From Tribonema minus (taxonomy: Eukaryota; Sar; Xanthophyceae; Tribonematales; Tribonemataceae): DNA of 64,000 bases. Position 1 is the first letter of the stretch, and each line of letters begins with the position of its first letter. The notes under the pieces are model-generated. The model saw nothing but the letters and a program-made list of their open reading frames with translations, ran no database searches and was not told the DNA's origin. The position numbers and the translations under genes were made by a program. The stretch covers positions 679,445-743,444 of the forward strand of contig JAFCMP010000526.1 in assembly GCA_017506865.1 (NCBI GenBank), written 5' to 3'. Of the stretch, positions 1-57,034 are shown piece after piece.

Positions 1-3000
1 GCAGTGTGTGGGCGCTTTGACAATGTCGTGAAATGCTAGGAAAGGCGCAGCACGCTTGAACCACCTGGTTTAGGAGACAACTGAGAGGTCACGCACGCGG
101 GAAGTACGCATGCACCTAAGTTAAGGTTAGGGTTGGGATTAGGGTTGAATCAAAACGCCGCGCACCTGAAACACTCACGTCAAACCTGTACCTGTAGCGT
201 GCTGCGTGTTCAACCGCAGCCAGCATAGTTGAAGTGCGACAGAGCTCCTCCAAGCAGTGCGCTGTGACAGCGCATGGCGCGCGCCGCGCCCGATCGAGGG
301 CCGCCCCCTCCATGCACATCACACCTCGGTGCTCAGCAGCAGGGTAGTTGTGCTGAGCGCTGCCTCCGCACGCGCGCTTTGTTGAGCGCTGCCTCTGCGC
401 GCATACGCCTCAGTGCTCAACAGCACGCCAGCGCTCACGTGCACTTGACGCACCGCACCGCGCGCAATCCGCTTTGCTGAGCACTGCCCCCGCACTTGTC
501 TCGTGCCTCAGTGCTCAGCGCCCAGTAGCGCGCAGCAGCGCTCCTCTCACCTTCGCGAGGCGCGCGGGGCGCGATGCGCGGCGCGACAAGTCACTTGGGC
601 CGCCAGCTGGCGCAACTGGCGCTACTAGCTGGCGATACCTCTTTGGGGCAAGGGGTCTAGTTTGGGCGCTAACCCTGAGCTCCCACCAGCACTGCAGCAG
701 CGCTCCTCTCACCTGCACGAGGCGCGCGCCCCACTGCGCGAGGTGCACGGCCTCCGCCTCGCTGAGCGCTGCCTCTGCGCGCTCGACGCCCGTCTCCCAC
801 AGCGTGTAGGCGCCGGTAGCGGCGAGCGCGTCGCAGTGCGCCGCGAGGGCCTGCTCGAAGGCGCGCAGCTCGCGGCGCAGGCGCGGCACCTGCGGGAGCG
901 TCACGCATGTGTTGAAGTTGAGCGTGTCGACTTGAGTGACAGTGTGCGTGGGGATGTGGCGGCGTTGAGTTCGATGTGCTGTACTTCTAGATAGTGCAAA
1001 GGAGAACACATAAATTGTGTCATGTCGCGCATTGATCACATCTTTGAGAGGTGTCAGTGATGCTGATTCACACACCGCTAAAGTGCTGCAGTTGAACTAC
1101 CTCATTCTTGTTGTGTTCTCCGGCAAGTGCATGACGGCAGACTGTCATTTGTTAGGTGCTACAATGACATCATTAGACGTACAGAAGCTGGCATACCTCG
1201 CTTCTGGTGTTTGTAATTGTTTGAACGTTTCCACAGAGGCATGACCTACCACAAACTGCATGGTGCAATGGGCGATTGATCAAGACTAGTCAGGTGGCCT
1301 CGAGCATGTTCTGATGCACTTGCATAATGCATTCAAAGCCAGGCACGGCATCACAGCTGCTGAAGAGCAGCACATGCACTTGCATCTAATTGACGCTTTT
1401 CAAGGGACTTGCAAAGCGAAACTATGGGGAGTCACCAGGAGCAGCAGCACAGATCAGAGTCACACGCTGCTCAGCTGCGACGATAGGTCCATATATGACT
1501 TCAACACGTGATGCACATGAGCTTCGGGCAGAGCAGGAAGCCCACAATTTTAATGTACAGAACAGCAACGCTCGCCTCAGTCAGTGGAGCGCCGCCACCA
1601 CCGCACAAAGAGCGCGCGCAGCAACATTAACTTGAAGTATGCCATGCCAACTCTCACCTGGGCCTTCAGGAGGGGTGCCAGGCGCAGCTCAAGCTCCGGG
1701 ACCTCAGTGCTCAGCTTTGTCAGCAGAGCGATGCCACGCGCCAGCTTTTTTGTTCTTCTCCCTTGGGATCTTCTTAAGGCAACATCAACTCGAAGTGTGC
1801 CATGACAACTCTCACCTGTGCCTTCAGCAGGGGCGCCAGGCGCAGCTCGAGCTCTGGCACCTCAGTGCTCAGCTCCGTCAACAGAGCAATGCCACGTGAG
1901 AGCGCCTCCTCGGCAGCGGGCGCATGTGCAGTCTCCAGCCGCAGGCGCGCGAGCATCACGCCGGCGCGGTCTGCTAGCAGCTGCATTGCGAGGGCGGCGG
2001 CGGCAGGTGTGGGGTCGCATGAGCAGTTAGGATTAGGGTTAGGGTCAGTGCTAGTCCTAAGGTGATTGCAAGTGTCATATAGAAGTACAACCCTTTTCTG
2101 GGTTAGGGTTAGGGTTAACGCTAAGGTGGCTGCACGAATCACATTCACGGGTTGTCGGCATGCAGTAGCGGTGAAGCGGAGCATCAACACCAGCCTGAGC
2201 AGGGCGCGGAGCTTAGAATTAGAGTTAGGTTAGGGTTAGGGCTAGGCACGCAGCCGCGTGTCGTGAGAACATGTCGCGCGAGGCTGACCAGCATCGACAT
2301 GTTCAGGCCGGCAAGCCATCGCCGCCTCATGAAAGCCCAGCTGGATCTACTCGCCTGGATTCACCCAACAGCAGTACCATACATTCTCACCTGTGTCAGC
2401 AGCCCCATGAGGCTGCACTTCGATTTGTCTCATGTTGCTTGGGATGACATGGAGAAAAGTGGGTTGCCTTGCTGCCCCATGAGCGCAGTACCATGCGATG
2501 AGGGTCTCATGGCACTCGTGCACACATGCCGACAAGTGACCACACCTGTCAAGGAGGACTTTTTGAAATTACAGGCTACTGACGGCCCTTGCCGCTCACC
2601 CATCCTGGATCCATCGCTTGCAGTAGAGTATCACGGTCTTGCGACAAGCAGGTGACGCATACGGTTCGCGATGATGACATAGCTTTCCCTTTGCACATCG
2701 GGGGCTGGCACATTCAATATTGTTTGATGTGAGCAGCACGTCAGTGCTCAGTCATGACACCCCGCGCCGTTGCGCAGCCGACGCGTGACGACGCTCCGGC
2801 AGATGCAGGCCCTGAGTGCTCAGTGCTCAGCACTGACGTGCTCATGCCCTCAGCGCTACGCGCGTAGCTACGGCCAGAATGATGCTTGAGGTGCGCAACT
2901 AATGGTGACTCTCCTGCAGTGCGGCTCTCGCGCTGCTGCACAGCTACGCACTGGCGATGGCCTGGCACAGTGCTCAACTCTGCCATCCTCATGCTGTCGA

Positions 3001-4562
3001 AGGATGCCGCACGGCTACAGCCGGACTGATGCTGACGATGCTCAAGCATGACACATCTATGACTATGATTGCCAAATAATCTTTAACTTCAACTGGTGAC
3101 TCGCCTGCAGCGCGGCGCCTCTGCGGCGACATCTTCGCACTGCTGCACAGCTAGCGTTGATAATGGTCTGGCACAGCGCTCACCAACTCTGTCATTCTTG
3201 CGCTGTCTACGGCGCTGGCACGGCTACAGCCGGACGGATGCTGATGATGCTAAGCATGATATTTCTATGATGATGCGCAGGATCTTCAACTTCAACTGGT
3301 TTTAGCCTGCAGTGCGGCGCCTCTGCGGCTGCGGCGACATCTTCGCACTGCTGCACAGCTACGCGTTGTATGGCCTGGTATACTGCTCAACTCTGCCATC
3401 CTCGTGCCGTCAACAACGCTGGCACGGCTACAGCCACACTGATGCTGATGATGCTCAAGCATGGTAGTACTTGTAGGATGATGCGGCGGATGGTCTTCAA
3501 CTTCAACTGGTGACTCGCCTGCAGCGCAGCGCCCTTGCGGCGACATCTTCGCACTGCTGCACAGCTACGCGTTGATGCTGATGATGCTCAAGCATGATAC
3601 TTCTATGAATAAGATGCGGGCGATCTTCAACTGCAACTGGCGACTCGCCTGCAGCGCGGAGCCCTTGCGGCGGTGCAGCGACGCCCAGCGCTTGACGCGC
3701 GCGAGCGTCGGCAGCGGGTCCGTGAGGCCCGAGAGCGGCACGCGTACGCCGTCGCGGATCTGCGGCGCGCGCGCACGTGGGGGGTAAATATGTATTCAAG
3801 AGCTTCATGGAACAGCATTGAAGTTCATGAGTCAACATTGGTATGCATGTATGATGGAACTATGGTGCTGTGCAGGTGCAGGCAAGATGCCTGAGCAGGC
3901 GCGCTTCTCTGTCATCAATGCGACGAGCGGGAAGCAGCTGGCTTGCGGCTTCAACTTCTACTTCAGCTTCGAGACCCAAGGCGGACAACGCGCCACGGCT
4001 TCGGCTTTCAGAGCACCAGTCAGAAATTCAACATGCACTCGCCACGCGCAAACCCCTGGCCCCCTCCTTGCGAGCACTGCACACTACACCCCAAGCCTAA
4101 CCCTAACCTCAACCCTAAATGCCTCCCTACCCCTCCCCCACCCCTTTCTCAAACCCTCACCCCCCTGCGTTGCCAGCTCATGAAATCGGCGTTGCCGCGC
4201 CCCCCTGTGCCAATGCGAACCTCCCCTTGCGCGCACCTGCTCCACGGCGGCCAGCAGCAGCGCAGCGTCGCTCCGCGCGGCAGCGCTCATCAGCGCCCCC
4301 CCCAGCGCCCCGTGCCCCGCCGGAGCATCCGCCGCGAACGCCGCCACGAGCGGCGTCCCCCTCACCGCCCCCGGCACGCACCCCCCGCCCCCCGCCAACT
4401 TCACTTCAACGATGTAGCGCCCGGGTTCCGGCGGGCGGAAGACGACGGAGTAGGTGCCGTCGGCGTTGTCGGCGATGCCGCGCACGGGGATGCGCTGCCG
4501 CGGCAGTAGCGCGGCGGCGGCGGCCTCCGCGGCGTCCGCGCCGACGTCGTCGTCGACTGAGC

Positions 4563-4594
<32 letters not shown>

Positions 4595-7500
4595 GGAGCG
4601 GTGGCGGGCCGCGAAGGGGCGGCGTTGGCGTCGGCGTTGTTATCATCGTCGCTGCCGTCGCTGTCTTCCGGCGCCAGGGGGTCTGCGAGGCGCAGGGCAA
4701 TGCGCGCACGCATTGGCGGCGGTCATTGGCGGCGGTCGCTTGATGCCCACAAGTGCGTATATGCCAGTTCACTGCTTAAGTTTGTGCAGTCACGATTGAG
4801 GCGCAGTGTACGTCAGCGGTCGGCTAGAGGCAGCACTCGCCACTCTGCGTCGCCGCCAACAGGTACTTTTCAACATCACCGAGCGTCAAGCTTCCGTAAA
4901 GCGTGGTGGGTCATTTGCTGCCACGACGTTGTGCAAGAGGCTTGCGGCATACGAACTTTGGCTCCCATTACTTGGTGTAGATGGATGTGGCCAAGCACAA
5001 CATTCATTGCATTTTATCTTCAACTAGTGTGGACCACCCGCAAGCAATGAGTGACCTGAAGCGGCAGAAGGCAACAAAAGTACCTCACTCTGACACTGCA
5101 CGTGTACGTGCGGATCCCTCAGCAGTGCATCACAGTGATCCTGTACACACTTCAACACACGTACTTCAACACAAACACTTCTACACCCACACTTCAACCT
5201 GCATCAGCGCTCACCGTCGTCCGCGCGCGCCTCCTCCACCAGCAGGTACACCGCGACCTCAAACGTGTCGCCGCCGGTCGTCCGATTCGCATTCGCGCCG
5301 TCGCGCGCCTGTATGATGAACTGAGCATCGCCACCGCAGCGCGCGCCGTGCAGCACGCCCGGACCGTAGGCGACGCAGAAGGCGGCGTCGGTTACGGGAA
5401 CGAGCGTGTACACAGCGAGCGTTGTGGAGAAGCCCTGGCCGCCCAGGGCGACTCGGACCTGGGAGTGGGAAAGAGTAGAGTCGGGGTCACGGGGGGTTAG
5501 GGTTATGCGGAGCACTGCCTTGGGGGGGCTGCTGCAGTGCGCAAGACGTCGTTGGGGATGACGTGTGCGCTATGATGAGGGAAAAGCACTCATGTAGGAC
5601 AGGGGCATTGTCTTCTGTCGGGGGTGTGGTGCTGCGGAAGCACTGCCTTGAGCACTGCTGCAGTGCGCGAGGCAACCTCAGGGAAGACGCGCGCAATTCA
5701 CTATGCATAATGGAGACACTGTGATGTCAGAGAAGGCATGTTCTGTCTGCAGATCCTGTCCAACGCTGCTGCCGTATGAACGTGAATACATTGAGATGCT
5801 GCTAGCTGGCGGCTTGACAGTGCATTTACGCGCATGGAGACCCTTGCTGCACTTGAATGACTACAACAGAAGCTCATCCTGCGAAGAACACATGTAGATT
5901 CATCTGCTGGGCGTGGGCAAGTAGACCAGATTGACAATAATGAGACTTGCAATGATGCAGCCTCATCCAACATGCCAGCTCTGTGTGCGGCATGCAAAAG
6001 TGCTCATGGTGATGGTGCAGTGTCTCCTCTCCTATCCTTTCTTCAAATGGTACAGCAGCATTAAAAAGCGACATGTCACAAGTGCAATTACCTCACCATG
6101 ATGTGTGACACTGTTGCGCGATGTGCATTGGCACACACCCGACTGCCATTGTACGACAACACACAAACAAGGAATCCACACGGCAACGGCAATTGCAACG
6201 TCACTGCAAGACCATCGTCACGTCCACTTGATGCACGCACTCACATGGTGACGACACCTGCATGCCAATGCAATCCATCATTGAATTCAGCTCACGCACT
6301 TTACAACAATCACCCACAAACACACAGCACTCCACATGAACACAAACAGCCGCGGCACACGCACCTCCACCTCCCCGGGCACAAACCCCTCCGCAGCAAA
6401 GTCCGGCGTGACGCACGTGACGCATGACTGCGAGAAAAACGTTCCACGCGCCGTAACTGCCGCCGCCGCCGCAGACCCGCCCCCTCGCCCCCCGCCCGCC
6501 CCGCCGCCGCGCGCCCTGAAGTGCACCTCCACCTGATCCGTCTTGCAGAAGTCCAGGCCCAGGACCTGCAGCGGCGCGCCGCCCGTGACGGCGCCGTGAT
6601 CGGGCGTCACGCCGTGCACCGTGTACGCGGGGCCCACGAGGGCGCCCACGTCGAGCGCGTGCGCGTCGCTCAGCCAGCGCCCCCCCCACCCCCGTACAGC
6701 AGCAGGCGCGTAGCCGCGGCCTGGTACACGAGCGCCGCGTCGCTGCGCGCGGTGGGCGCGGCGCCGCGCGCGCGCGGCGGCGGCGCCGCCCAGCGCAGCC
6801 CGCCGCCGCCGCCGCCGCCGCAGTCGAGCACCGCCACATCGTCGCGCAGCGCGCCGCGCGCGCTGGCGCCCGTCAGCGCGCCGCCGGCGCCGCCGAACAC
6901 GAAGACCTTGTGGTAGGGCTGGCCGGCGACGGCGACGGCGGCGCAGTTCCAGCGCGGCTCCGGGAGGTCGGCGCCTGCGACGCGCGACCACACCGGCGCC
7001 ACGGGCTCCGTGTCGAGGGCGTAGATGTCGGCGAACTCGGCCGCGGTGGAGCGCCCGCCGAGGACCAGCAGGCGCTGGTCGACGGCGACGGCGGCGTGGC
7101 CGGAGCGCGCGCGCGGCGGCGCGCCGCGCGCGGCGACGCGCAGCCAGGCCAGCGTCGCGCAGTCGAGGCACGCGACGTCGTCCAGGTCGCGGTGGCTGTA
7201 GCGCGGCCCGCCGTAGCCGCCAAAGACCCAGAGCTTGCCGCTGATGAAGGTGGCGGAGTGGCCTCCCCTCGCGCTGGGCGCGGGCGGCAGCGGCGCCGCC
7301 GCCGCCGGCGCCACGCCCGAGGTTTGCAGGTCGAGTTGCCGCCAGTCGCGTGTGATGGTGCTATACAACCAGGTGTCGTTGAGGCGCACAGAAGAGCTCT
7401 CGTACCCGCCGAACAGCAGTAGCCTGTTCTCGCCGATGTCGGTGGTGGTGTGGCGCCACCGAGGCGAGGGCCAAGGTTTGCCGTGTTTGCGTAGCACCGA

Positions 7501-17945: not shown

Positions 17946-20900
17946 ATGGGCAAGAAGAGCAAGAACGATGCGGACGAAGGGCTGACTCGTATTGCGATCG
18001 TCAATGCCGACAGGTGCAAGCCCAAGAAGTGCAGACAGGTGAGCAAGCCTGCCGCTCGGGTTTTGATTTCCACCGCTTTTGGTACAGCACTTCCTGGCAG
18101 TCCCGGTCTGTAGTTCTTGTAGCTCGTTCTGTCAGCGCTTGTAGAGATTGAGTGTGCTGCATACAAGCTTGAGTAGATGATGCCCCGTGCTACACAGCCT
18201 TCACTGTTGTATCCTTCGTAACTCAATCATTCTTGTGTCGCCTGCCAGTTTCAAGCCCCATCGCACTTCAACTGCACACCGACAAAGCTTCATCAAGCAC
18301 CTTGGTCAAGCTGGCTGCAAGCAGCGCTTGGTGCACTCATCGGAGTCTCATTGCCTATTGAAAAACTCGCAGCTGCGAGTGTCGCGCGAGCACTGATCAG
18401 TGCTGCTGCCGCTGCTGCCGCCGCCGCGCTGTCTCTTGCAGGAATGCAAGAAAATGTGTCCCGTGGTGAGGATGGGCAAGATGTGCATTGAGGTTGTGCC
18501 CACCAGCAAGGTAAGCACCATTCGCAAAGAATCACTACTTTCATGCACATATAAAAACCGCATGATACATGCACGCTGGCACTCCGCAAATGCAAGTGAC
18601 AGCGCAGTGTTTACATTACAACACACCCTCAACACCGGCTACCGCGGCTGCAATGCGTCGCTCATCGCGGCAACTGTTGGATCACGCTGACCACGCATGC
18701 CGCCCGCAGCCGGCGCGCATGCGCACTTGCTGAGCGCTGCTGTGCGCTCATCGCACACCACAGCCTCAGCGTCATTCAGCTGACCCCATCGCTCGCAAGC
18801 GCGCGCAGCGCTCACGCTCACGCGCCCGCGCCGCGTGCGCAGATTGCGTACATCAGCGAGGAGCTCTGCATCGGCTGCGGCATCTGCGTCAAGAAGTGCC
18901 CGTTCGACGCGATCGCGATCATCAACCTGCCCAAGAACCTCGAGGCGCAGACCACGCACCGCTACGGCCCCAACTCCTTCAAGCTGCACCGCCTGCCGAT
19001 GCCGCGCCCGGGCCAGATCCTGGGGCTCGTGGGGACGAACGGCATAGGCAAGTCGACGGCGCTCAAGATACTCGCGGGCAAGGTGAAGCCGAACCTGGGC
19101 AAGTTTGACGCGCCGCCGGACTGGCAGGAGATCCTCACGTACTTCCGCGGCTCGGAGCTGCAGAACTACTTCACGCGCATCCTCGAGGACAACCTCAAGG
19201 TGAGCTTCAGGGGGGGGGGGCGCCCGCGCGCGTGGGCGGGGGCGGGAGGGGGGGGCTGGGGGCTTCGTAGGCGTGCTTCCAAGGTCAAGGTGATCTTTGG
19301 AGGGGGGGGGGGGGGGCTTGAGGATACCCTCAAGGTGAACTGGGGAGGGCGGGGCAGGGGGGGGGGGGGGGGGGGCTTCGAAGGCGTGCTTTCAAGGTGA
19401 TCTTTGGAGGGGGGGGGGGGGGGGGGTGGCGGCTGCGGAGGTGTGCTGCGGAGCGGAAAGGCGCGCATGGAGTGCGTCTGGGGGGAGATGATGGCTGAGC
19501 GATTGCTCGGGCCTGGGCACTGACCGCCACACAACTTGAAGTGGTGACACGATTCTGCTGGCACGGAGTGTGGGAGCGCGCATTTGGCGGGAGGCACAGG
19601 AGGGGTGCGCGCTGGCTGATTGCTGGCGCGTCACTGTTGGAGTGCCGCAGGGGTGCAGGCGCGCGCCAGTGCGCAGGCGTACATGCGCCAGCTGGAGCAT
19701 TCGTGATGCATGACGTGTAGTTGATAATGTGTACTCGATGATTCGGCTGGAGCGCCTCTTTCTGCGTCATGGCGCAGGGCCCTACGTGTATCCCGCCATA
19801 CCCTTGCGCCCAATACATACTGTTGCAACGTAGAGAGCTGCTGCATTCTACGTGTTGCTCCACGTCAGTCGTGGGCTGCTAGAAGTGAACGTGTTGTGGT
19901 CTGTCTACCGGCAAGTGTTGCCGTAACCGTCAAGCGTGAGCATGTAACTGCCATTTGCTCCAATACATACAATCCCCAATAAAATATGTCATGCCCCATA
20001 CCATGCCCCCTACCCTACCCCCGCGCAGGCCATCATCAATACATACGCATCCCAATACATACGCACATGCCCTATACATACCCTACCCCTACGCAGGCCA
20101 TCATCAAGCCACAGTACGTGGACCACATACCGCAGGCGGTGCGCGGGAAGGTGCAGGAGATCCTGCTGGCCAAGAACGAGCGCGACAATGTGGACAAGCT
20201 GCTGGACGACATGGACCTGCGGCACGTCATGGTGAGCGCTGCTGCCCAAACCCTGGTTTGGGGGTTAAGTACATGATATGGCACTTGCGCTTCCAGATGA
20301 GAAGGACCTGCAGCACTGCGAGCGCTGCTGGCTGACTGTAACCCTGCGCCGTGGAGGCTGTGTGATCGGGGGAACATGGTGCGCTCATGAAATGTTACGG
20401 ACGCAGTGTGCAGCCTAGAGAGCATGCCTGTTCTACCAGGGAACTTCAACTTCAGTCGAAGCGCTTTTGGTGTGGAGTGCCGTGCGCGTCTACAAGGCCC
20501 TGGGCCTGCTCAGGTGTATTGCAATTATCAGAGACCGCCAGTTACGGAAGCTTTGAGGAGTCCTTTGCGTGTATGCGCAAGCCCATGGCCGCAAGCGCGC
20601 AAAGCAGTACCACCGAGCGCACGTATTTAAGCTGTTGTATTTGTGCTCTGCAGGTCTCGTGACGTGCGTCACAGGCACTGCATGCTGGCCGACGCGTGAT
20701 CGCGTGACTGTGCGCTGGCGGCAGCGCAGCGCACAGTTACCAATGACATGTGGCAGCGCTCAGGCGATGACATGTGGCAGCGCTCAGGCGATGACATGTG
20801 GCAGTGTTCAGGCGATGACATGTGGCAGCGCAGGCGATGACATGTGGCAGCGCTCAGGCGATGAAACACTTCAAGTGGCTGACAGTTACAAAGAACGCAA

Positions 20901-23900
20901 GCGCACCATCAGGCTTTCATCTTGCCTGTAACCATCTTGGCTGTGCCGTTTTGCATATGCACGGCACAATGTCAACGGACCGCAGAGGGTATACCTGCAG
21001 GCAAGTCTGCCGCATGTATGTATGAATGGCGATCTGCACTCCTGCTGCTGCAACATGACCTGATGCACTGTCACGCTGTTGTGCTTTTTGTGCTGGCGCC
21101 ACTTTCACAGGACCGCGAGATCTCGGTGCTGTCAGGAGGAGAGCTGCAGCGGTTTGCTATTGCGGTGGTGGCGGTGCAAAAAGCGGTGAGCACACGAGCA
21201 GAGTTTATGGCCGTGGCTGACCAGTGAATGCTGTGAGTCGTGGCGGGACGAGTGCGCCAGATAGAGCTTTTTGTGCAACGACGACTGCCCTTTTCTAAGA
21301 AACGAACATGGCGCAGCGCATCACTGCCTGTTCGCCGCTGCCAGTGTTGACCATGACCCTGTGCTCACTACAGTAGTGCCATTTGACAAGGCTGCAGCTG
21401 ACAATCGACGTATTCAAGGGTGTAGATATGGTGACGGAAGATCGTCATTTGGGGACACTGCTGCGACAGCTACTGCCGCTAATCTACTGAAACGTGCTAT
21501 GGTAGTTCAACGTCAAAGTTGACAGGTCATGTGCGAAGCACAACGGAGACGCGTCGCAATAGCGACAGCATCGGCGCATGAAGAACAGCCAGGCTGCATG
21601 GCTGAATAGTTGACACCAAGAATGAAGGCGCAACAAAGGCAGGCATGTAGACTGTAGAAGCGGCTCAGTGAGCAAGAGACACTACGTGACAGGCGGTTGA
21701 GATCACTAGTAGCTGTAGAAGTACATGGCAATACTTGACCTGCTTGCCATAATTCAACACCTGCGGGCGAAGAGGAGGTTCACAAAGCACCCAAAGTGTA
21801 AGTGTGACTCCACTGTTGCTGCACCAACAACAGCGCCAAACATGCCAGCGCTGTTGGCAGCATCGTGCGACTATGTGTGTACAGGGATCTGTGCTGAAGC
21901 GAGAGTTCAGGAGCACCTCTGTACTCTCAACTTCAACTTCTCAATGATCTGACAGTCATCCTGACCTTTGTTGTGACCATGAGAACAAGTCTCCGACTCT
22001 TTCGACCTAAGTCTCGCTCAGGCAGCTGTTGAACTTCAATTTCAAATGCCGTGCTCAATCGTCAGCTGCCGCCTGCCCCCCCCTCTCAGGGTGTATACAT
22101 GTTTGATGAGCCCAGCTCGTACCCGGACGTGAAGCAGCGCCTCAACTTCAACCTCTGCACACGTCAGCGCTCAAACTTGAACTCTTGTTTGCCCCCTCCC
22201 TCCCCCCCCACTGAGGATGTGTACATGTTTGACGAGCCCCGCTCATACCTGGACGTTAAGCACGCCTCAACTTCAACCTCTCCAGATGTCAGTGCTCAAA
22301 CTTCAACCTTGGTCCCCCCCTTCCCCCCCCCTCCCTCCTCCCTCCCTCAGGACGTGTACATGTTTGATGAGCCCAGCTCGTACCTGGACGTCAAGCAGCG
22401 CCTGAGGGCGGCGGCAACGATTCGCGAGGTCGTAGACCCCGCCGGCGCAGGCACGCAGCGCTACGTGCTCGTCGTGGAGCACGATCTGGCCGTGCTCGAC
22501 TACCTCAGCGACTACATCTGCTGTCTCTACGGCACGCCGAGGTAAATCAAAGTCAGAACAGACAACCGGTTGAGGCGGGTTGAGTGTCTCTTTACGGCAC
22601 GTGGGAGGTGAACAAAACGGCGGAGACGTGTTGAGGTTCTGGTATGGCGGCATCAGGACTGCGCTGCGTGCGTGCGTGGCTGCCGCGGTGGCAGCCAGCC
22701 GCATTTGGGGTGTTTGAAGCAGGCGCGAAGATGTGACGCTGCGGCACCAGAACCCTGGTCGTGTGACAGCTGTAGTGTGTCGAGCGTGATCTGTGCGATT
22801 TCATTCTCAGTGCGGCACACCGAGCAGTGGCAGTGGCGTGTCCAGACGCTCTTCCAGCGGTAGCTGTGATGTGATGCGGTTGTTGAACATCACGGTCAGC
22901 AGCAGTGTCAGCTTGTCATGCTACCCGTACCGCGTCGTGTCACCAGCACAGCATCGCGCCAGTGGCGTGCCAGAAGGACGCAGTAGCATGCATGAAGGCA
23001 TCAGGTCTCACCTGCTCAGGCGCAGCGTAGAGTACAATACCTCAACATATTGTCAGCGCAACCATCAACCTTGTGTACTGCTTTCAATGTCTCAGTCACC
23101 TAGCGTGAGCGCAAAAGCACGCATCTCAATCACATGCCAGCGCAACCCCTGAACTCGTCGTCTTTCCGCAAAACCTGAACTTCAACTTGTTGATCTCCCT
23201 GTCGTTCCTGCTGCGTGCAGCGCCTACGGCGTGGTGACCATGCCCTTCAGCGTGCGCGAGGGCATCAACGTCTTCCTGGCGGGCTTCGTGCCGACGGAGA
23301 ACTTGAGGTTCCGCGACACGTCACTCGACTTCAAGATGACCATGACGGCGGAGGAGCTAGGGCAGAGCGACTGCACCGCGCTCTACAACTACCCCAACAT
23401 GACCAAGACAATGCGCTCGCCCAACGGCGCGCAGTTCATACTGCACGTCGAGGCGGGCAGCTTCACCGACTCGGAGATACTGGTGAGTCGGAGTCGGGGT
23501 CAGTGGTACGTGCATCCCTCTGCAATTAATGAGCTGCATGATTTGACTGTAAGGTTGGGCCATGGATCGAAGCACAGTACATACTGCACGTCCATGCGGG
23601 CAGCTTCACCGACTTGGAGATACTGGTGAGTCAGAGTCAGAGTCAGCCCTGTGCGCATCGCTCAACATGCAAATGTTGCGATGCATGATGTAATTGTAAA
23701 GTGATGTTGCCCAACGGCGTGCACTTCATACCGCACTTCACCGACTCGGAGAATTCGTGAGTCAGAGTCGGAGTCAGTGCTGTGCGCGTCGGGCAGCGTG
23801 CGCCTCGAGACGCGCATGACTCAACTGCACGTCAGACGTGTTGCTGTAGGGCATGGGGTGTGGCGCGCTGCTTGCCGAGGCACGCGGCATTGGCGACTTA

Positions 23901-26900
23901 AATGAGACTCGCAGATCTTGGCGAGTCTGAGTCTTCCGTCTGCATTGCCCGGGGGGTACAGGCGACGCATCTGTGACTCAGCTCGATTGCTGTGTCACAA
24001 TGCGGTGCGCGCGTTATGTGCTGCATGTCGGTGCGTGTAGCTTCAAGGACTTCAGGATCTTGATGAATCTGCCTTCCGTACTGCTCAGCGTGCATGGTGA
24101 TGTGCGCTGCGTGCTGGCATTCCCGTGGCAGCTGATCACGCATGTTGAGACAAGACGCATGCGCGTGCTTAGGCGCATGCACAGCACAAAGCTTCGAGGA
24201 AGCGGCAGCACCACAGCAACGCAGAACACTGCTTTCACCTTGAACCTGGGACATTTCAAAGCTCACAAGCTCACCCCGTGTGGTCGCTCGTATGCACATG
24301 TTCAATGAACGATCTACATAGTCACACGAGCACATTTGACATGCTGATGGTCCGTGTTGTGTGTGTTTTTTCCTGAATTACTGCTTCAGGTCTTGCTGGG
24401 AGAGAATGGTACCGGCAAGACCACCTTCATCCGCATGCTGGCGGGCCTGCTCAAGTCTGACGAGCAAGCAGACGCTGAGGCGGAGGGCGACATGGACAAG
24501 GTACATTCGAGAAATCTTTGTTTTGATGCTGCCACAGTGCTCAGCAGCCGTTTGCTCGCTTTGTACCACTTTCCAATGCGTTGGCGTAAGGCAAGTGGGC
24601 ACGCGCAAGAAGGCATGATGCCTTAGAGAGCTCGAAGTTGATGTCACGACGTCGGCCACAGTGCGACTCAGCATGCAAACGCTCAGTGGTTAACTCAGCA
24701 CCAGTGAACCTGAAACCTAATCAGAGCATCGTCAGGAAACATTGCATGCGGCAGTGAGCAGCCTTGTGGTGAAGCCTGCTGTCACCAGCTCTGCACTCAC
24801 CTTCACCATAGTCCACTCACCGTCACCACCGCCTGCCTCCACAACTGCCACAGGCGGACTCACTGGGCGTGCCGACGCTCAGCGTGAGCTACAAGCCGCA
24901 GAAGATATCGCCCAAATTCGAGGGCACGGTGCGGCAGCTGCTGCACAAGCGCATCCGTGACGCGTACGTGCACCCGCAGTTTGTGACGGACGTCCTGCGG
25001 CCGCTCAACATCGAGGACATCATCGACAATGACGTGCAGGTATGTACTGCTTCTTGAAGTTTGCACACGCACCTCCAACCCTACTGGTGACCTCATGCAG
25101 CCCCCACTGCTGGTGCGTGTGTATTCGCCTCAACACAAACCCGCACACACACAAATACATCCACACACACACACACCCGTGCATGTGTGTACTATGTCTT
25201 GAAGTTTGTACCTGATGCTGACCTCATGTAGCCCCGCTGCCAGTGCGTGGCTGTGCCCCTCGACGCACACACACACGTGTGACCCAGTCTTTTCCCGTTT
25301 TAGTGCAACAACCAAACAGTGGTTGATGGTACCCTTTGTCTGCCGAGAATTATTTGCGGTTTACAGGGCCTTCTTGCTTTCAACGCGCCACTGCTATGAA
25401 ATGGCAGTCAGAGCGCCCTGCAGTCTGCTCACTTGGCATTGCTCAATACTGGCAATGGTCAGTATATCGCACATCCAGGACCATTGGTCCAACCGTGACC
25501 AGAGCTTTGATCTTGCATGCTGCTGTGGTGGTTTGCTGCAGAATCTGTCAGGTGGTGAGCTTTGGGTACCTTGTAATGCGCTGCCATGCCTCGAGCGCAG
25601 CTCGCTGCTCGTGTTCTCATTCGGCGTTGCTCAGTACTGGCAATGGTCAGCTCCCTTACATCGCACACCCAGCACCATTGATGGCCTTCAGTCGAACCGT
25701 GACTAGAATTCTGATCGCCTGCAATACTGCCGTGTCGTTCGCTGCAGAATCTGTCGGGTGGCGAGCTCCAGCGCGTGGCCATCACGCTGTGCCTGGGCAA
25801 ACCCGCGGCCATCTACCTGATCGACGAGCCCAGTGCGTACTTGGACAGCGAGCAACGCATCGCGTGCTCAAAGGTATGTCGTTTGAAGTCTTTGCAATGT
25901 TATGACAAGAGAACATGTGTGTGCGCACTACAGCAATATGGGATAGAGGTGAGATCAAGCGCGTTGCTGGACAGTGTGCAGCGTACTTCATGTTTGAAGT
26001 TTTGTTGTGGCGAGCGTTGTGCCCTCCCCTCCCCCCTTCCTATTTGCTGCATGTTTACCACATCGCTTGAAAAGCCTAGCTAGTTTTCCTTAGATGCCAG
26101 TGAATGGTGCCAAGGCCTATGCTGAAGACGCAAGATTGCTTATATACCACAGTTTTTTTGTAATTGCCGCAGTTCACATCGACTGAGCACGTGCCTGCCT
26201 GCGCCCCTCATTACAGCTCATCAACCGGTTCATCATGCACGCCAAGAAGACAGGCGTGTATACCACAGTCTCAGCTTTTGATTGCAGTGTACTCCGACTG
26301 AGCACGTGTCTGCCTGCGCTCCTCTTTGCAGCTCATCAAGCGGTTCATCATGCACGCCAAGAAGACGGCGTTCATAGTGGAGCACGACTTCATCATGGCC
26401 ACGTACCTCGCCGACAGGGTGGTGGTGTACGATGGCCAGCCGGGCATTGAAACCACTGCGCATGCACCACAAAGCCTGCTTACAGGTAGGCAAAAATGTG
26501 GACTTTGGCTTGAGATCGTGTTAGTATTGTGGGACGTAGGGTCTACAACATTGTGTGCAATAGCTTGGTCAAAGCTTGACGGCGGTGTCCTGAAAATGCA
26601 GGCGCCCTATAGTGGTGTCTGCGAAAGGCTTGCATAGCGTACATGTGCTGGGTGTCTGCGTTGGTTCGAAGGCAGTTCAGCGGTGGATGGTGTCAGTTCA
26701 CTGGCAGCTTTCGACATGCAGGCTTGTGAAGTTGCACGGGATGACTGCTTTGTCCTTCCACGTTTTGTCGATGCGTTAGAGTGCCCTACAGCTACCAAGA
26801 TGCGCTGTATGGACAACACCTTGGCGGCACGGCGCGCATGCGTCGCATGTTCTGGGCTGCAGAAGCGGACGCGATCCGTGACGCAATGCGCCGCCATGCG

Positions 26901-27193
26901 CCTTATTTGGTCTCTGGCCGCTTCCACGGCGTCTCTCGCAGCCTGCACTTTGGCGCTTCCTGATCAGTCACGCATTGCCCGCTCACTACCTGGTGCAAGC
27001 ACATGACCCCCGCTTCCACTTCGTCGCGCCCCCCCCCCCCCCAGGCATGAACACCTTCCTGGAGCAGTTGCGCATCACGTTCCGGCGCGACCCCACCAAC
27101 TTCCGCCCGCGCATCAACAAGCCCGACTCCATCAAGGACCGCGAACAGAAGCTTAGCGGCAACTACTTCTTCATGGACGCGTCGGATGACTGA
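17946..27193 (+). CDS. ABCE1: ABCE1/RLI1 ribosome-recycling ATPase, complete, 12 exons
   Basis: Cytosolic iron-sulfur ABC ATPase that splits ribosomes after termination and acts in initiation. Exons: 17946-18038, 18442-18510, 18843-19199, 20097-20231, 21111-21185, 22351-22541, 23221-23482, 24390-24500, 24854-25039, 25748-25873, 26332-26485, 27045-27193. All phases join, giving 635 aa against about 600 in animals. Eight cluster cysteines sit at 24, 29, 33, 37, 63, 66, 69 and 73. NBD1 has GTNGIGKST (118-126), LSGGE (225-229) and [14 protein letters not shown]2 has GENGTGKT (398-405), LSGGE (495-499) and [10 protein letters not shown]. The C-terminus has FRRDP and SGNYFF. No essential residue is missing. 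The extra length includes an acidic insert after NBD2 Walker A ([12 protein letters not shown]). The start lies in ACAAGATGG context. Several introns carry copies of their own exon edges, annotated separately. Confidence 0.97.
19205..19432 (+). repeat. G-rich copies of the ABCE1 exon 3 donor region
   Basis: After the true donor (AACCTCAAG|GTGAGCTTC at 19199) the intron repeats CTCAAGGTGA-like sequence followed by long G runs at about 19262-19302, 19317-19345 and 19376-19408. The 19317 copy also keeps CTTGAGGATACC, a decayed form of the exon's CTCGAGGACAAC. The opposite strand is C-rich. Confidence 0.8.
20010..20040 (+). repeat. Copy of the ABCE1 exon 4 acceptor
   Basis: CTACCCCCGCGCAG followed by GCCATCATCAA duplicates the true acceptor and first codons of exon 4 at 20083-20107, about 75 bp upstream. 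The unit also contains repeated AATACATACGCAT-like sequence. It is a potential alternative 3-prime splice site, but it leads only into intron. Confidence 0.75.
20742..20864 (+). repeat. 24-bp minisatellite in ABCE1 intron 4
   Basis: Five tandem copies of a 24-bp unit containing GATGACATGTGGCAGCGC, with one copy shortened by 3 bp and one carrying two substitutions. Every unit holds the AGCGCTCA octamer or a close variant. There are no unique spacers, so it is not a CRISPR array. Confidence 0.9.
22080..22270 (+). repeat. Two upstream partial copies of ABCE1 exon 6 with acceptors
   Basis: Copies of the exon 6 start lie at 22090-22143 (acceptor CTCTCAG) and 22215-22266 (acceptor-like CACTGAG). 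The true exon starts at 22351. They still read [17 protein letters not shown] and [15 protein letters not shown], a duplicated Walker B and D-loop. Both break off at the same place, just before CAACTTCAACCTCT, and neither has a donor. Each unit ends in a C-rich tract before the next acceptor. Confidence 0.92.
23573..23800 (+). repeat. Downstream copies of the ABCE1 exon 7 end and donor
   Basis: The last 50 or so nt of exon 7 with the donor GAGATACTG|GTGAGTC recur at about 23573-23660 (nearly intact: GGCAGCTTCACCGAC then GAGATACTGGTGAGTC) and at about 23705-23800 (shorter, GAATTCGTGAGTC). A strongly decayed third copy is recognisable around 23985-24065. Divergence grows with distance from the exon. 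Confidence 0.9.
25040..25255 (+). repeat. Duplicated 5-prime part of ABCE1 intron 9
   Basis: Sequence directly after the exon 9 donor (TTCTTGAAGTTTGCAC, then GACCTCATGCAGCCCC) recurs about 155 bp later as GTCTTGAAGTTTGTACC and GACCTCATGTAGCCCC. CA-rich microsatellites follow each copy. Confidence 0.75.
25435..25772 (+). repeat. Duplicated ABCE1 exon 10 acceptor unit
   Basis: A unit of about 190 bp is present twice (about 25435-25567 and 25620-25772). The first copy contains GCTGCAG|AATCTGTCAGGTGG, a copy of the acceptor and the LSGG codons of exon 10, whose true start is 25748. TACTGGCAATGGTCAG and other blocks align between the units. Confidence 0.85.
25957..26000 (+). repeat. Decayed copy of the ABCE1 exon 10 end
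   Basis: GCGTTGCTGGACAGTGTGCA and then TTTGAAG mirror the end of exon 10 (YLDSEQR codons) and the first intron bases, with several substitutions and loss of the donor. Confidence 0.6.
26140..26258 (+). repeat. Upstream copy of the ABCE1 exon 11 acceptor and start
   Basis: A unit of about 117 bp is repeated. The copy has acceptor CATTACAG ending at 26216 followed by about 39 nt reading [13 protein letters not shown]. The true exon ([13 protein letters not shown]) starts at 26332. The shared intron part includes TATACCACAGT and GACTGAGCACGTG. Confidence 0.92.
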
Positions 27194-30495: not shown

Positions 30496-30522
30496 GGGGG
30501 GGGGGGGGGGGGGGGGGGGGGG
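30496..30522 (+). repeat. G27 homopolymer within a G-rich tract
   Basis: The tract 30460-30522 is almost pure G with few T or A interruptions on the plus strand. It sits next to decayed GGGCCC-family repeat sequence. Confidence 0.85.
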
Positions 30523-30639
30523 AGGAGCCGGCAGTAAGCTGTCGGCCCCCCCGCCTGCAAGATGGGGCAGCTAAAGGACATAGAACAGGGCACACAAGAC
30601 GTGAGATTTTGTTCTCATAGACGCCGTCGTCCCGTATAT

Positions 30640-30712
30640 GCATGAGGGCCCAGAAACTCCCTCCGGTACAAAAACATGCAATGAGGGCCCAAAGACTCCC
30701 TCCAGTATGATC
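30640..30712 (-). repeat. Two tandem fragments of the GGGCCC repeat family
   Basis: ATGAGGGCCCAGAAACTCCC and ATGAGGGCCCAAAGACTCCC occur about 35 bp apart, each followed by TCCGGTA or TCCAGTA. On the minus strand they match the TACCGGAGGGAGTTTTTGGG box of the longer family members. Confidence 0.75.
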
Positions 30713-34900: not shown

Positions 34901-35177
34901 GCTGAGGGGCTGGTGCGTCACCGCTGAGTAACACACTATCGTAATGCAGCAGTCGTACTGCAGTGATGTCCATGTGATGTGCACATCAAAATGCAGGTCT
35001 GATCGGAAGGTTGTACGCAAGTACACAGGTTTCTTGTCCTCCAGGCACAGGCGGCTGATTGCATTGCATCATCATAGAGATGTGCGAGGCTCAGCTTCCA
35101 AACAAGCCACGCATACCAGCCACGTGCAGAGCGGAGAATCTCTATGCCAGACGCACAATACTAGAGGGAAACCGTAC

Positions 35178-38100
35178 CTGGGGCGCTGGTGATGCTGGGG
35201 CGGCAGCGGCAGCGGCAGGGGCAGCGGCTGCGGGCTCGTGGAGCGCAGCGGAGAGCACGCCTTCTAACTCGCGTGCCCGAGTCGCTAGCTTCGTCCGCAA
35301 ATGGAAAAATTCGAGGTCCCGGGATGCAAGCTGCTCCTGGAGGCGAGCGTTGTCTGCGAGCTGCTCCGCCATTGTCGCCTGCGCGCCGGACCAGTATACA
35401 AGACAGTACGGCATCTTCAGCGCCATGCACACGATCACTCACCCGATGTGCATGCTCTTCCAGTATCGGTGTTGGTATGAAAGCTTCCAGAGAGGTGATG
35501 CCATGATGCTCGCTTTCTGCTGTCGTCAACCTTCCTAGCTGCGCACTACAAGTAGGGTTAGGTTTTGGGGTAGATCAGGTTGACCCATGCATATGACACA
35601 ACAGGAAGCCCACTGCCGCGTGTAAGGTCTCTGGCGCATGTCAACAAGTACCACGCAAGCTGAGCTTAACATTTCAACATGCACACTGAATAATGCGCGA
35701 GCCACGGTGAGTTAATCGCCCTGACACCTGGCGAGCGGAGCCAGGCAGACGACACATCAGCAGGCCACCAAAAATCATTTACTCAACTCCGTCGTGTTGA
35801 GCTCCTCAAGGTGTTGAATGTGTCTGAGGTAGAAGGCAGTAAATACCTAAATTGTCTGAGCAATTACTCGCTGATGCCTGCCCTCTCTCCTCCACAATGT
35901 CATTGGGAGCAGGCGCACGACAAAGTGCAAATACTCGCAACTCAATCACATACTTCCCTCGCCACACTTTTGGTATGCCGCAAGCACGGACAAGAGAAAT
36001 TCCAAACGCAGCACAAGCAACATGAGGTTGCAGAGACATTTCAGGCGAGGTACAACTTGACTTGGCACATCCAAGCAAGAGAGCACGCAACGACGCGTGG
36101 AGTACAGCTGCATATTGACAGCAGCATGCACCAACTGTCTACTGCCTGCGCAAGTGGCAGAGGCTTGCATGGGCGGTTTCCAAGGTGGCAGAGGCTCGCA
36201 TGGGCGGTTCCCAGGATGTTTGAGGAAGTGGGTTATTGCTCGGCTGCACACGACATCGATCATCAACACACACCTGAGAGTGCACCTCACGTGCAACAGC
36301 TACACTGCCTGAGACTCACATGTGCGTTGGCCAGCTTGTCGCGGAACGTCTCGAGAGCCTCGTTGCGCGCCGTCAGGGCGGCGTTCTCGGCTTGCATAGC
36401 TTGCAGCTGCTCCACGGAGTGCGCGTCCTGCTGCTGAGCAGCCAGGGCGTCATTGCGGGCCTGCCCAGCAATTCGCAAATTATGGCGAGCACGCAGGTGT
36501 GATTTTTGCTTTAGCAGGCGTGACCAGGGCAGGTGAGGTCAAGTTGTCACGCTTGAAGAGACGATTACGCTTTCTGGCATCGTACAAAGGATAAGAAAGG
36601 TTGTTCAGCCTCTTGCACTGTGAAGGTTGCTGGCCGCTCATACCCGCTTCGTCATGGTGGCATAGGCGCTCATGACTGGAAGCTGCAGCGTGCATGCAAC
36701 AGCTTCAGTAGTCGCTGCCGCTTGCAAATTGCTGGTACACGAAGCATGATCGCATGATGCCATGGCAACCTCAGCAGGCCAGCGACTGAAACAGCAAACC
36801 TGCATAATAGCAAAGAGCGAGAGCAAGCTAATTCTTATCCTGCACATTATGCAATTAATCGCATGACTGTTGAAGACACCAATTGGTTAACATGCGTGCA
36901 ACATCTGCCCTTGGCGATGCGGGCAAGGCTGAGGGCGAGACTTTGAATCGGGGTAAGGACTGAAGTCAGGACGAGAGCAGAATTAGGGCTATGTACGCAA
37001 GGGTTTGGCATGCGCATTGAGAAAAGCAGTGAGAGGTACGCAGGTAGGTAAGGTAGGCAAAAGTGGTGGTAGTATCACCAGTTTCAACATGTAGTGATAG
37101 TAGTATTGAATTTTATTGCACTCAAAGCTTCACCCATAGAATTGAATTTACATATTTGTCTACAGTACTGTGCCGATTGTACTTTGTAAAGAGTAGTCGC
37201 CACAATGCTGAATGCTGCTGGATGTTGAAGGTTGGCACTGCACTGCTGGCTGATAAGCAACGTTGCGCGCAGTTTTGTGCCAGGGAACACAGTATATGGG
37301 CACAGCGCGAGCAGTGAATTAAGGGTCATGGTGACATGCTGCTGATGCCTGCATCAACTGCCAGACTGAGACGTTACAAGGGCTTGGCGAGGCGCAAGCT
37401 GGATGTAACTGCCATGCAAGCGCTCGGAGCGTCACAGGCAGCATTACACAAAGGTGCAGGTGAGCTGGCAATGAGTTGCTTTCACGAAAGCAACTTGAGA
37501 GCAACTTATTCGCGCCTAATAAATTATCTGCGCCTACCGCACAGCTCCGCCATTCAGTGCTGCACCGTGAGGTTTTAGGTTTGAGGTTTTGTGATCAGCT
37601 CAAAAACTAGCTTAGCTTGAAAGTTGTCTGGATGATTATTGTTTGGCGGCGTTCTTCTTGCCATGGAAAGAGCTGCCACAAGGCAAAGCAGAGAATTTCA
37701 GCCATGCACTCAGATGTTTATGTATCAACAACCAAAGGGCGCTGCATCCGTACTGATGATAGCGGACATGGCAGCTGATGTTGCCGCATACACCGTCATC
37801 GACCCGCGGATGACACTGGTTGACAGGCTGTGCATCAAAGACACTAGCAGACAATCACTTACTGCTACTGCCACCCTGAAGCAACAACTCAGCGTGCTAC
37901 TTGACGTGCCGAGCTGTCCCTGTGTTGTTGATTGACACACACCTGTATCGAGACGGCCTCCAGCTCCTGGGTGCGTGCGCCCCGCCGCTCCACCTCAGCG
38001 ACAAGCTCATCGCGCTGAACAACAGCAATGCACAACACCAGGCCAATAAAGTTCATGAGCACCCACATTGCCAGCATTATGCACATGACTTCACCATAGA

Positions 38101-41100
38101 GTTCATGTTTGATGGCTCGTGATTTTAGCCAGGGTTTGCCAAAAACTGACAGCATGCTCGCCGTCACGGGAACTGATCACAATGCAATGTAGCAAAGCGT
38201 AGCCGTTACACGCCGAGGGTACGTATGGACTTGCCGAGAGTACTGTAACACAGCAAGGCGCTGCATAAGCGCTGATGGAGGTGCATTTTGCAGCTGATCG
38301 TCATTTTCAAACATATATCAAAATGCCCTGCCGTCATTACACTGCTTGACAAAGTGCGCATTGACGACAGTAGCAGGCGCTCACATGCCACTCTGAAGCA
38401 AATTCTGTCTGCTATACTTGGCGTGTCATTCTGTCAATGCATTGATGACTGACCCGCACCTGTCCCAAGAGGGCCGCAACCTGACCCTGCAGCTGCTCGA
38501 TACGTGCGCCACGATAGCCCACCTCCGTGCGAAGCTCATCGCGCTGAACAACAGCAACGTCAGGCAAACAAGGCTATGAGCTCTCAGGTGGCCAGATGAT
38601 ACACTTGCGTGCAACACAGAATGCGTACATGAGTTTCCACGGTCTCAAAATCGCTGTTTGATTGGACCTGATGAACTGCGACATGTCCATAAAATTGGCT
38701 GAAGGGGAAATGCAAGAAAATGAAGTGTACACCGCACGACCTGCATCAAACCCAGCGATGATGGGGGGCAACTGTATGGGCGTGCAGTGGAGTAATAAAG
38801 TTGGTAGTTGCTGTTTTCACAAGCGGGGAATGGAAATACTCTGAGCTACATCATGCTCAACTGCCTCTGTTGTACATGTGCTTGGTGTGTCAGTGATTTG
38901 GACTTGAGGTATGAGTTGAGGTACTGTTTTGCAAGTAAATCGAATGAGCAGGTGGCTTGCATGCGCACTGCCCGGCGTTGCATGGCTCAACAACGTGCAA
39001 TGTGTAGTGTCATCGAAACATACATACATCGCGTTCAAAGTGTAATAGCAACGCACAACAGGGGGCCAATCATGTGCATGAGCTCTCACAGGCCAATGGC
39101 TGTTGTGCATTGCTGTTGTTCAGCGCAATGACTGGGCCAACGAAGCAGAGCTTTGCGGGGTTCACAAGTGAAGCCTCCGAAGGCGTGTAGGGCGCTCCGG
39201 GCATCCAATCGCGGCTGGTTGATGAGAGCAATCTCATCCTCCGGTTCTCGAGCTCGTCGCAGGCAACCATAGGGGCCCTCCGGGGGCCCCACCATAGCTA
39301 ACTCGTCTCACATGCAGCTCTTGCCTGCAGACGGGGGGGGGTCGGCCTCCAGGCTGACTCCTCCCCCCCCCCCCCCCCCCCCCCACCAACCCCAACCCCC
39401 ACCCCCCTCTCCACCCACCCACGTACCCCCATTTCCCATTCCACATCCCTGCCAACCACTCCCTCCCATTCAGCCCGAACTTCCTTCTTGCAGCACCGGT
39501 GCACTGCAAAGGCTCTTGCAGCACCGGTGCACTGCAAAGGCTGCCGATGATCGCGAATGGGATCCACGAAATGCAAACAATCTCCAGCACTGCGCACAGG
39601 ATATCAATTGAGCAGGAGTGAGGCGTAGAGTATAGTATGTTTATGGCGGAGTGTAGGGGGGGGGGGGCAGACGGACGAGGACTGACAGCTTGCCTGCCGG
39701 CTCCTATCCCCGCCCATCACCCCTCAACCCCCACCAAGCCACCCACCATCGCCAGTTGCACTCCTTCATCCCCGCCACCACGCCACCACCACGCACTGCG
39801 CATCAATCATCAACTTCAGAGCGTACATCATGATTTGATCATACTTCAAAGTGTTCATATATATGAGCCTTCAGCGCTCTCGCGAAGTGTACACGCATCC
39901 TAAGTTAGTAATATTGCATCAATTATGAAGGCAAGGTATGCGTAGCTGTAACTGCTGCATGCGATAACGTCCAGCAACAAAATCTGAAGCCGTGTTGAGG
40001 TGATCCACATTTACACACCTGCTCCCATTTGAATGCGGGAAGAAATGGGCATCGCCATGGGAGGGCATTTTAGCATTTCGATGGCGCCAACAGCTGCCTG
40101 AAGTCCAGCATCTGGTTTGAACATGTGAGGCCGTCAATGAGGTTTCAGTGGTTAACCGTTAAACGGCGTCCTCCCCCCCCCCCCCCGCCCCCGCACCACA
40201 CCACACTTCAAGCACTCTCTACAGTGATCTTGACAATCATCTTGTCCAACCCCAAACCCAAGCAACACCTCACATGTACCATCACTGTGCTAAACACACA
40301 GTTGCAGAACACCTGCTCAGGTGCTCAATGACACTACTTCATGGATGCTGAATGTCATCCGAGCAACCCACATCACTCATGGAGTTGAGGGCGTGTGTAG
40401 AATGGCTACATCAGCCATTGCAAGTAGCCTACGCCGGCACATTTGGGGCACTCAAACTCTTGGTCATCTTCTACCGGACCATACATGCCGCCCGCAGATC
40501 TACACCAAGCCTATCACTTCGAGTACTATAAACAGAGAGCGTGTGCTGCTGATCTGAGTAGCGGGCACTGGCAGCACGCGGCCTGTCATACGCATCATGG
40601 CCTCCCAATCAACAGAGCTTCACAAGTAGGTACAGTACCTGCTTTTAGCATTTGCAAGCCAGTCAGTGTGCACCAGGGAGTCTCTCCAATGAGCGCTCTG
40701 GCAGCATGCTCGACAAAAGGATCTCCGACTGTCTGCTACTAGTCGTACATGTGCCACACAAGTGATCACAGCGTGCGCACATTACATTTTGCGCGCCCAC
40801 TCAACGACATGATTGTCCATCAGACATGCGCAATGCAAATTAGCAGGGTGAAGAATGCACAGATCCCAAGTAGGCTGCAGTCAAACTCTGGAAGAACGAT
40901 GCATTTCTTGGCATCAACTCATACTCCAATTTTATTTCAGAAGGCAGTTCATCAATGACGACCTAGCGACTGTGGATGATACAACCACACGCAATGATGC
41001 CATCACCCCCCCCCCCTCAGACACACACACGCCGTCTTTCCCTTGGATTCCATTATGGGACTTTTTGTCTCTCCCCCCCCCCTTCACACCCCCCCACCAG

Positions 41101-57005: not shown

Positions 57006-57034
57006 TGTACGGCCAGCTGTCAGTGAACATGTAC

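Follow-up and report, generated by a model that had tools for sequence, protein, structure and literature searches.

Direct duplications across exon–intron junctions, and the decay of their outer copies, in introns of Tribonema minus

The window analysed here, the last 64 kb of a 743,444-bp contig (C523; JAFCMP010000526.1) in the 158-Mb, 554-contig assembly of Tribonema minus (GCA_017506865.1), contains the gene for ABCE1 (RLI1), whose introns hold partial copies of their own exon–intron junctions. We describe these copies and, from a larger sample of the same genome, report that short direct duplications are strongly concentrated at splice junctions and that their outer copies decay as free sequence. 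The gene and its exons lie as follows (window coordinates):

~17946..27193, + strand: ABCE1 (RLI1) gene, 12 exons (PDB phmmer, transcript-derived protein P0001, tblastn)
19199, + strand: end of ABCE1 exon 3 (exons 1–3 placed by tblastn with P0001)
20097-20231, 21111-21185, 22351-22541, 23221-23482, + strand: ABCE1 exons 4–7, exact
24390-24500, 24854-25039, 25748-25873, 26332-26485, 27045-27193, + strand: ABCE1 exons 8–12, exact

Exons 4–12, spliced, encode 462 amino acids that match P0001, a transcript-derived EukProt protein, over their full length (identity listed as 100%, two substitutions by eye). The next match is a Vaucheria-labelled protein at 87%, with Chrysoparadoxa australica at 80% among those that follow, and these relatives place the source of the gene most likely in a xanthophyte or close relative, displacing the green alga that GC content and intron style had at first suggested. 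P0001 contains the exon-proximal junctions but lacks every copy described below; the exon-proximal junctions would therefore be the spliced ones, at least in the assembled transcript, and at the protein level, as judged from this one transcript-derived sequence, the copies appear to be unused. An earlier note on the window had proposed that splice sites here might shift by duplication; we see no sign of this, ABCE1 using its exon-proximal sites.

We scored both ends of ABCE1 introns 3–11 (18 edges) against 200 approximately dinucleotide-preserving shuffles each. Both edges of introns 3 and 9, the acceptors of introns 5 and 10 and the donor of intron 7 score above every shuffle. Together with self-comparison, this confirms the copies that had been claimed for introns 3, 5, 7, 9 and 10; the accompanying claim that both ends are affected stands for introns 3 and 9 but not for intron 10, whose donor has no copy above chance in the shuffle test (p = 0.14). 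The donor of intron 4 is marginal, and the intron 6 donor (p = 0.045), intron 8 acceptor (p = 0.015) and intron 11 acceptor (p = 0.030) reach nominal values with low scores of 22–25. The donor copies of introns 3 and 9 include only 5 and 7 bp of exon. The copies and the real segments they match are:

19200..19455, + strand: start of intron 3, donor-type repeats of TCAAGGTGA plus G-rich intron at ~19285, 19330 and 19392 (~5 exonic bp; score 34, shuffle maximum 31)
20002..20039, + strand: intron 3 acceptor copy, 11 exonic bp; real junction 20096/20097 (self-comparison; score 49, shuffle maximum 29)
20296..20330, + strand: intron 4 marginal donor copy (score 27, shuffle maximum 26)
22076..22142, + strand: intron 5 acceptor copy 1, 53 exonic bp (exonic identity 0.94, AG kept)
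22192..22267, + strand: intron 5 acceptor copy 2, 53 exonic bp, one gap (exonic identity 0.89)
22337..22403, + strand: real acceptor segment of exon 6, junction 22350/22351 (self-comparison, P0001)
23419..23505, + strand: real donor segment of exon 7, junction 23482/23483 (self-comparison, P0001)
23572..23646, + strand: intron 7 donor copy 1, 54 exonic bp, GT kept (self-comparison, shuffle test)
23709..23791, + strand: intron 7 donor copy 2, decayed further than copy 1 (self-comparison)
25178..25211, + strand: intron 9 donor-side copy, 7 exonic bp (score 38, shuffle maximum 27)
25428..25561, + strand: intron 9 acceptor copy, 20 exonic bp; real segment 25616-25767, junction 25747/25748 (self-comparison, shuffle test)
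26143..26257, + strand: intron 10 acceptor copy, 40 exonic bp, head to tail; real segment 26259-26371, junction 26331/26332 (self-comparison, shuffle test)

That donor copies lie downstream of the exon and acceptor copies upstream of it, as had been pointed out, is uninformative, because this is the sole arrangement able to leave the protein intact. Counted by hand against the exact exons, six ABCE1 arrays touch a junction and one is interior (p = 0.025 for an estimated junction share of 0.42). The interior one is a 24-bp satellite; a minisatellite of this unit length, with about five nearly identical units, lies in intron 4 at 20743-20864.

Beyond ABCE1, the material comprised 258,338 bp in 10 sequences of the same genome, with 30 gene models. 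The sample is non-random: a contiguous 164-kb stretch that includes the window, 30 kb from an arbitrary spot on another contig, and the remainder around ABC-transporter matches. Gene models came from a simple self-trained ab initio hidden Markov model (HMM) of our own, with GT donors only. Predicted exons shorter than 60 bp, many of which resemble intron copies mis-called as exons, were discarded, as were low-complexity matches and, from the edge, copy and intron-only similarity counts, introns under 100–150 bp. Rows from two overlapping loci (L003 and L007) were dropped in early duplication analyses and later merged or removed, and the intron-only similarity test and the duplication-coverage profile used an earlier version of the models. 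In the model of a myosin gene, 10 of 14 exons are backed by a homologue (P0121, tblastn) and one more by P0122 alone; all exons bearing edge copies are among these 11, the alignments backing the exons rather than exact junctions. A search with the myosin protein returned no conspecific transcript among the best 120 matches listed (best identity 64%), but the homologue it gave served to back exons.

Exon edges of 60 bases were compared with their own intron, a score of at least 50 counting as a match, and the controls were exon segments 70 bp further in and other introns. A copy in the edge's own intron is present for 44 of 286 edges; among the controls, matches were found for 2 of 130 exon-interior segments and in none of 1,042 comparisons with other introns, so that the duplications go beyond chance, as the earlier note had maintained. 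The same note had proposed the comparison of exon edges with random exon segments as the one that could overturn its claim; run on the 258-kb sample rather than genome-wide, it leaves the claim standing. No edge matched another intron of the same gene (0 of 291 comparisons, 147 donor and 144 acceptor) and no inverted (reverse-complement) copy was found at any of the 286 edges; with successive copies spaced at a median of 152 bp (5th–95th percentile 87–306), the copies are direct, tandem and local.

The junctions are also where local duplications concentrate. Across 81 kb of intergenic sequence, 117 kb of intron and 382 edges we counted 89 local duplication arrays, of which 64 span an edge, 10 lie inside introns, 5 in intergenic sequence and 3 inside exons, and 7 are mixed. 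Assuming a target of 150 bp per junction, this gives about 1.1 arrays per kb at junctions (64 over about 57 kb) and about 0.09 elsewhere (15 over about 169 kb), a 12.6-fold excess that becomes 8.6-fold when all seven mixed arrays are counted as elsewhere. In simulations of decay and detection, junction duplications were merely 1.28–1.39 times as visible as others; the slower decay of exons therefore accounts for a small part of the junction excess. Corrected for visibility, this excess is about 9-fold, or about 6-fold if the mixed arrays too are set against it. A test independent of exon conservation, which used similarity within introns only, points the same way: of 46 introns that contain internal duplications, 23 include a duplicate pair reaching a predicted splice site, compared with 6.6 expected under random placement. 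Duplications cover 2.2% of intergenic and 15.5% of intron bases; in exons, coverage is 20–27% within the first 30 bp of a splice site and 1–8% beyond 70 bp, and in introns it falls from 24% at donors to 2% by 500 bp.

Copies occur at both ends of 7 introns, where 3.7 would be expected, and introns with copies (43 of 175) are longer than those without (median 763 versus 515 bp; p = 3e-5), copies being present in 7% of introns of 60–250 bp and in 40% of those longer than 800 bp. The association fits intron growth, which the earlier note had suggested, and partly reflects the greater room that long introns offer for detecting copies.

Of 88 copies, 8 whose end lies over 8 bp away from the junction were dropped; the 80 kept lie at 50 edges (30 donor, 20 acceptor) in 18 of the 30 genes. 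The exonic part of the nearest copy has a median length of 52 bp (range 23–107), and in duplications detectable through the intron alone it measures 7–81 bp by hand reading. A fixed exonic extent of about 53 bp, suggested by acceptors (11 of 20 nearest copies at 50–58 bp), is not claimed, given the broad spread of donors (23–81 bp) and this 7–81-bp range, and inspection by eye gave no clear breakpoint motif. Exonic identities are graded from 0.73 to 1.00, and the units vary in length and carry insertions and deletions. In 49 of the 80 copies the intron side, too, resembles its counterpart at a level above the null's 95th percentile.

The outer copies decay freely. Relative to the real exon they show 178 synonymous and 217 nonsynonymous differences, a ratio of nonsynonymous to synonymous change (pN/pS) of 0.41, and 25 of the 80 carry a frame-breaking gap; in aggregate this is about what is expected of a constrained exon paired with a free copy. 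In the 34 copies whose intron side is clearly alignable, mean substitution divergence is 0.142 on the intron side and 0.071 on the exon side, which is the ratio for two drifting lineages against one. Of the copies that come to 2 bp or less from the junction, 26 of 31 still have AG and 27 of 40 still have GT, retention near the level of decay alone, GT being lost slightly above expectation (p = 0.02 against an assumed 0.82). Divergence had been said to increase with distance from the real site; we find a weak trend only, the farther copy being less similar in 29, more similar in 15 and tied in 1 of 45 non-independent within-array comparisons (p = 0.049).

Three further duplications lie elsewhere in the window:

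1621..1896, - strand: donor duplication, real 1779-1896, copy 1621-1738 (88% identity; 81 exonic bp by the HMM model)
2928..3682, - strand: donor array of ~208-bp units in an intron of a Kelch/filamin gene model (self-comparison, 78–82% identity)
37810..38557, - strand: tandem duplication of a whole exon and both flanks (67% identity; by eye both copies open, with both splice sites)

The extension of edge copying to other genes thus holds for the first two, but the pair at 37.8–38.6 kb, which had been placed in the same class, is a whole-exon duplication, both exons of which are probably coding, rather than an exon-edge copy. The copy at 1621-1738 differs from the real exon edge by 9 synonymous changes and 1 nonsynonymous change and, to judge from this pattern, may be coding now or have been so until recently. 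The gene model that carries the 2928-3682 array has Kelch and filamin domain matches at ~4390-7700 (- strand). The donor of this array, at 3640-3660 (- strand), resembles by eye a GC-AG donor (CTGCAG|GCGAGT), outside the reach of the GT-only HMM; copies lie at ~2913, 3105, 3308 and 3523, and GCGAGT is kept in two of the four.

Taken together, these observations are probably best explained by recurrent small tandem duplications that are focused on splice junctions, are tolerated through use of the exon-proximal site, and lengthen introns from their ends; the proposal of a repeated, boundary-focused process that leaves fossil splice sites is thus supported by the junction excess and the free decay of copies. 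Under this explanation, short direct duplications, spaced mostly 85–230 bp, would recur across exon–intron junctions, each unit taking in roughly 20–80 exonic and about 100 intronic bp. The exon-proximal site would still be used afterwards, as the ABCE1 protein indicates for that gene and as exon definition would presumably ensure elsewhere, so that the protein would be unchanged and the extra junction absorbed into the intron, where it would decay while the real exon stays conserved. Further rounds, and probably exchange within the array, would add or refresh copies, and the intron would lengthen from its ends inward, a direction with which the length association is consistent. The focus would most likely have a mutational rather than a selective cause, such as staggered breaks or repair events in a zone that reaches about 80 bp into the exon and 150 bp into the intron. 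A bolder form, which we advance tentatively and think somewhat doubtful, is that splice junctions are mutational hot spots, at which some process linked to splicing, to transcription or to the chromatin of exons repeatedly duplicates sequence from about 80 bp into the exon to about 150 bp into the intron, introns growing from both ends with a layered record of splice sites. Exon ends in brown algae are reported to carry mammal-like splice-related signals (PMC12477816), which would fit exon definition in this lineage.

Several observations weigh against junction-focused duplication as we describe it. Intron-side similarity does not exceed the null's 95th percentile in 31 of the 80 copies, including 8 of the 31 whose exonic identity reaches 0.93 or more, and exonic and intronic identity are uncorrelated (−0.09; earlier measure, 53 copies). 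The sharpest case is a five-unit donor array, C511:3208-3917 (L004:3208 into L024), with exonic identities of 0.99, 0.96, 0.87 and 0.91: its nearest copy, at C511:3274, is 99% identical over 67 bp of exon and then runs into different intron, which makes the array a candidate for recent exchange. A single simple duplication is no explanation for copies that lack such intron-side similarity; the mismatch could come from exchange or conversion within arrays, from fast change of introns by insertion and deletion, or from a second duplication. Some copies look coding-constrained, with synonymous to nonsynonymous differences of 9:1 for the 1.6-kb copy in the window, 7:1 and 6:2 at C146:8400 and 5:0 at L005. 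Intron coverage on the acceptor side is flat to about 350 bp, with no peak at the junction, and the repair signature is thin, just three clean head-to-tail pairs of at least 85% identity having overlaps of 1, 4 and −5 bp. Outside ABCE1 and the myosin gene, moreover, the models are ab initio, from an HMM of a kind that copies can mislead, and the sample is non-random.

Three of the rival explanations accept the duplications and dispute the focus. Small duplications might arise at a uniform rate, those inside exons being purged and those at junctions staying visible longer through their conserved exon copy; the rarity of exon-interior arrays (3 of 89) is what purging predicts, and exon parts do diverge at half the rate of intron parts, but the simulated gain in visibility falls far short of the observed 12.6-fold excess (binomial p about 4e-19 for an assumed junction share of 0.32) and the edge bias recurs in the intron-only similarity, so we regard this account as distinctly improbable. 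Somewhat less improbable, though still unlikely, is that coding exons themselves are the hot spot, for instance by being GC-rich or nucleosome-bound, and that only duplications reaching into the intron survive purging. It predicts the same survivors, and exon ends are indeed GC-richer than intron starts (0.67 versus 0.54); yet the exonic part makes up at most half of the copy distance in 39 of the 45 nearest copies within 250 bp, where random placement would put about half of them above 0.5, and copies appear at 2 of 16 stop-codon edges, where duplications could be tolerated (one probably a mis-called gene end), and 0 of 14 start edges, numbers too small to be decisive. We judge it similarly unlikely that arrays are refreshed by exchange or conversion with the conserved exon as permanent master copy, which would make a focus of births unnecessary: the fresh exon copies adjoining intron without detectable similarity (8 of 31) and the identities in the C511 array speak for it, but intergenic pairs should then likewise stay alike, and the clearly alignable copies average the 2:1 divergence of undisturbed decay.

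The remaining alternatives concern the nature of the copies. Functional alternative splice sites or alternative exon ends would accord with the retention of AG and GT and with the largely synonymous differences of the 1.6-kb copy; against this, pN/pS fits one constrained and one free lineage, frame-breaking gaps are frequent, and the ABCE1 transcript-derived protein lacks every copy, so that we give this possibility very little credence. Mobile introner-like introns or dispersed repeat elements, for which two matches between introns of different genes (113 and 147 bp, 72–74% identity) might be cited, are already largely refuted and scarcely credible, since the ABCE1 intron-5 array has a single matching place in 158 Mb (in a search that skips very common words) and the remaining cross-intron matches are short or fall within one gene. 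Least probable of all is an assembly artefact, which is very unlikely: we found no evidence in its support, the units show graded divergence and differ in length and by insertions and deletions, and the intact ABCE1 exons agree with the independent transcript-derived protein.

Several known processes resemble the one proposed here. Gao and Lynch (PNAS, 2009) reportedly described internal gene duplication and intron creation; there too, within-gene duplications include splice sites and change exon–intron structure, whereas here existing introns appear to be lengthened repeatedly at their ends, the extra sites becoming fossils, and no new intron is seen. In the Rogers model, introns are gained by tandem duplication of AGGT-containing exon sequence. 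That model shares with our case a local tandem duplication involving splice-site sequence, and the earlier note had drawn the parallel, which finds no support: the model starts within an exon and makes a new intron from a purely exonic unit, whereas here the introns pre-exist and the unit spans the junction, at least 49 of 80 copies including intron sequence in addition to exon. Schiml et al. (PNAS, 2016) are said to have obtained tandem duplications in plants when adjacent single-strand breaks were repaired; these are reportedly direct, head-to-tail and of roughly this size, share little homology where the units meet, and are not known to focus on splice junctions. Tandem exon duplication and mutually exclusive exons likewise place exon copies within an intron, and the 37.8–38.6-kb case fits them, but edge copies are partial, often frame-broken and decaying as free sequence, frame and coding constraint being absent from the copies overall with the exceptions of the window's 1.6-kb and 37.8-kb cases, C146:8400 and L005. 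Introner elements act at algal introns; unlike them, the duplications described here have no dispersed copies in the genome search with the ABCE1 intron-5 array or in the cross-matches among sampled introns.

In the literature, tandem duplication is a recognised proposal for the source of new introns (PMC2809761), and titles cited in another paper (PMC3488318) refer to intron origin from tandem arrays and to intron sliding and tandem duplication. The former paper also reports that novel introns in Daphnia (Li et al. 2009) are flanked by short direct repeats and attributed to uneven double-strand break repair, and that direct repeats at new introns measure 8 bp or more in Drosophila examples (PMC2809761). 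Staggered-break repair is thus proposed there too for direct repeats at splice sites, but the repeats are short and lie at new introns, whereas here units of about 150 bp, often in several copies, lie in existing introns. Among the titles and abstract openings listed in literature searches, which covered few subscription papers, we met no report of splice-junction duplications repeatedly lengthening existing introns, nor do passages of a Coccomyxa and a Haematococcus genome paper contain anything on splice-junction duplications.

The arrays bear on how introns become long and on the way splicing deals with sites that have been duplicated. Many intermediates survive, as copy arrays of graded age beside conserved originals, from which rates, directions and site choice would be measurable, and the arrays point to a mutational process that can target exon–intron junctions.

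Other repeats and fragments were met along the way. The two cross-gene matches, of 147 and 113 bp, link C523 introns 58066-60753 and 119786-120096 to the intron at 96534-97367 (coordinates of the joined 164-kb stretch; subtracting 100000 gives window positions) and are possibly a small dispersed repeat. Telomere-like repeats (CCCTAA/TTAGGG) occur within introns, at 1980-2240 (- strand) in the window and in other sampled introns, and single telomere-like 10-mers in 9–13 of 179 sampled introns. The window further holds a G-rich minisatellite of 23–24-bp units at 59580-59705 and an ATGTAT hexamer array at 57029-57088. Finally, a search with the RuBisCO large subunit found just two fragments, C334:714136-714324 and C112:516888-517037, each with one in-frame stop, which are possibly plastid DNA inserted in the nucleus.

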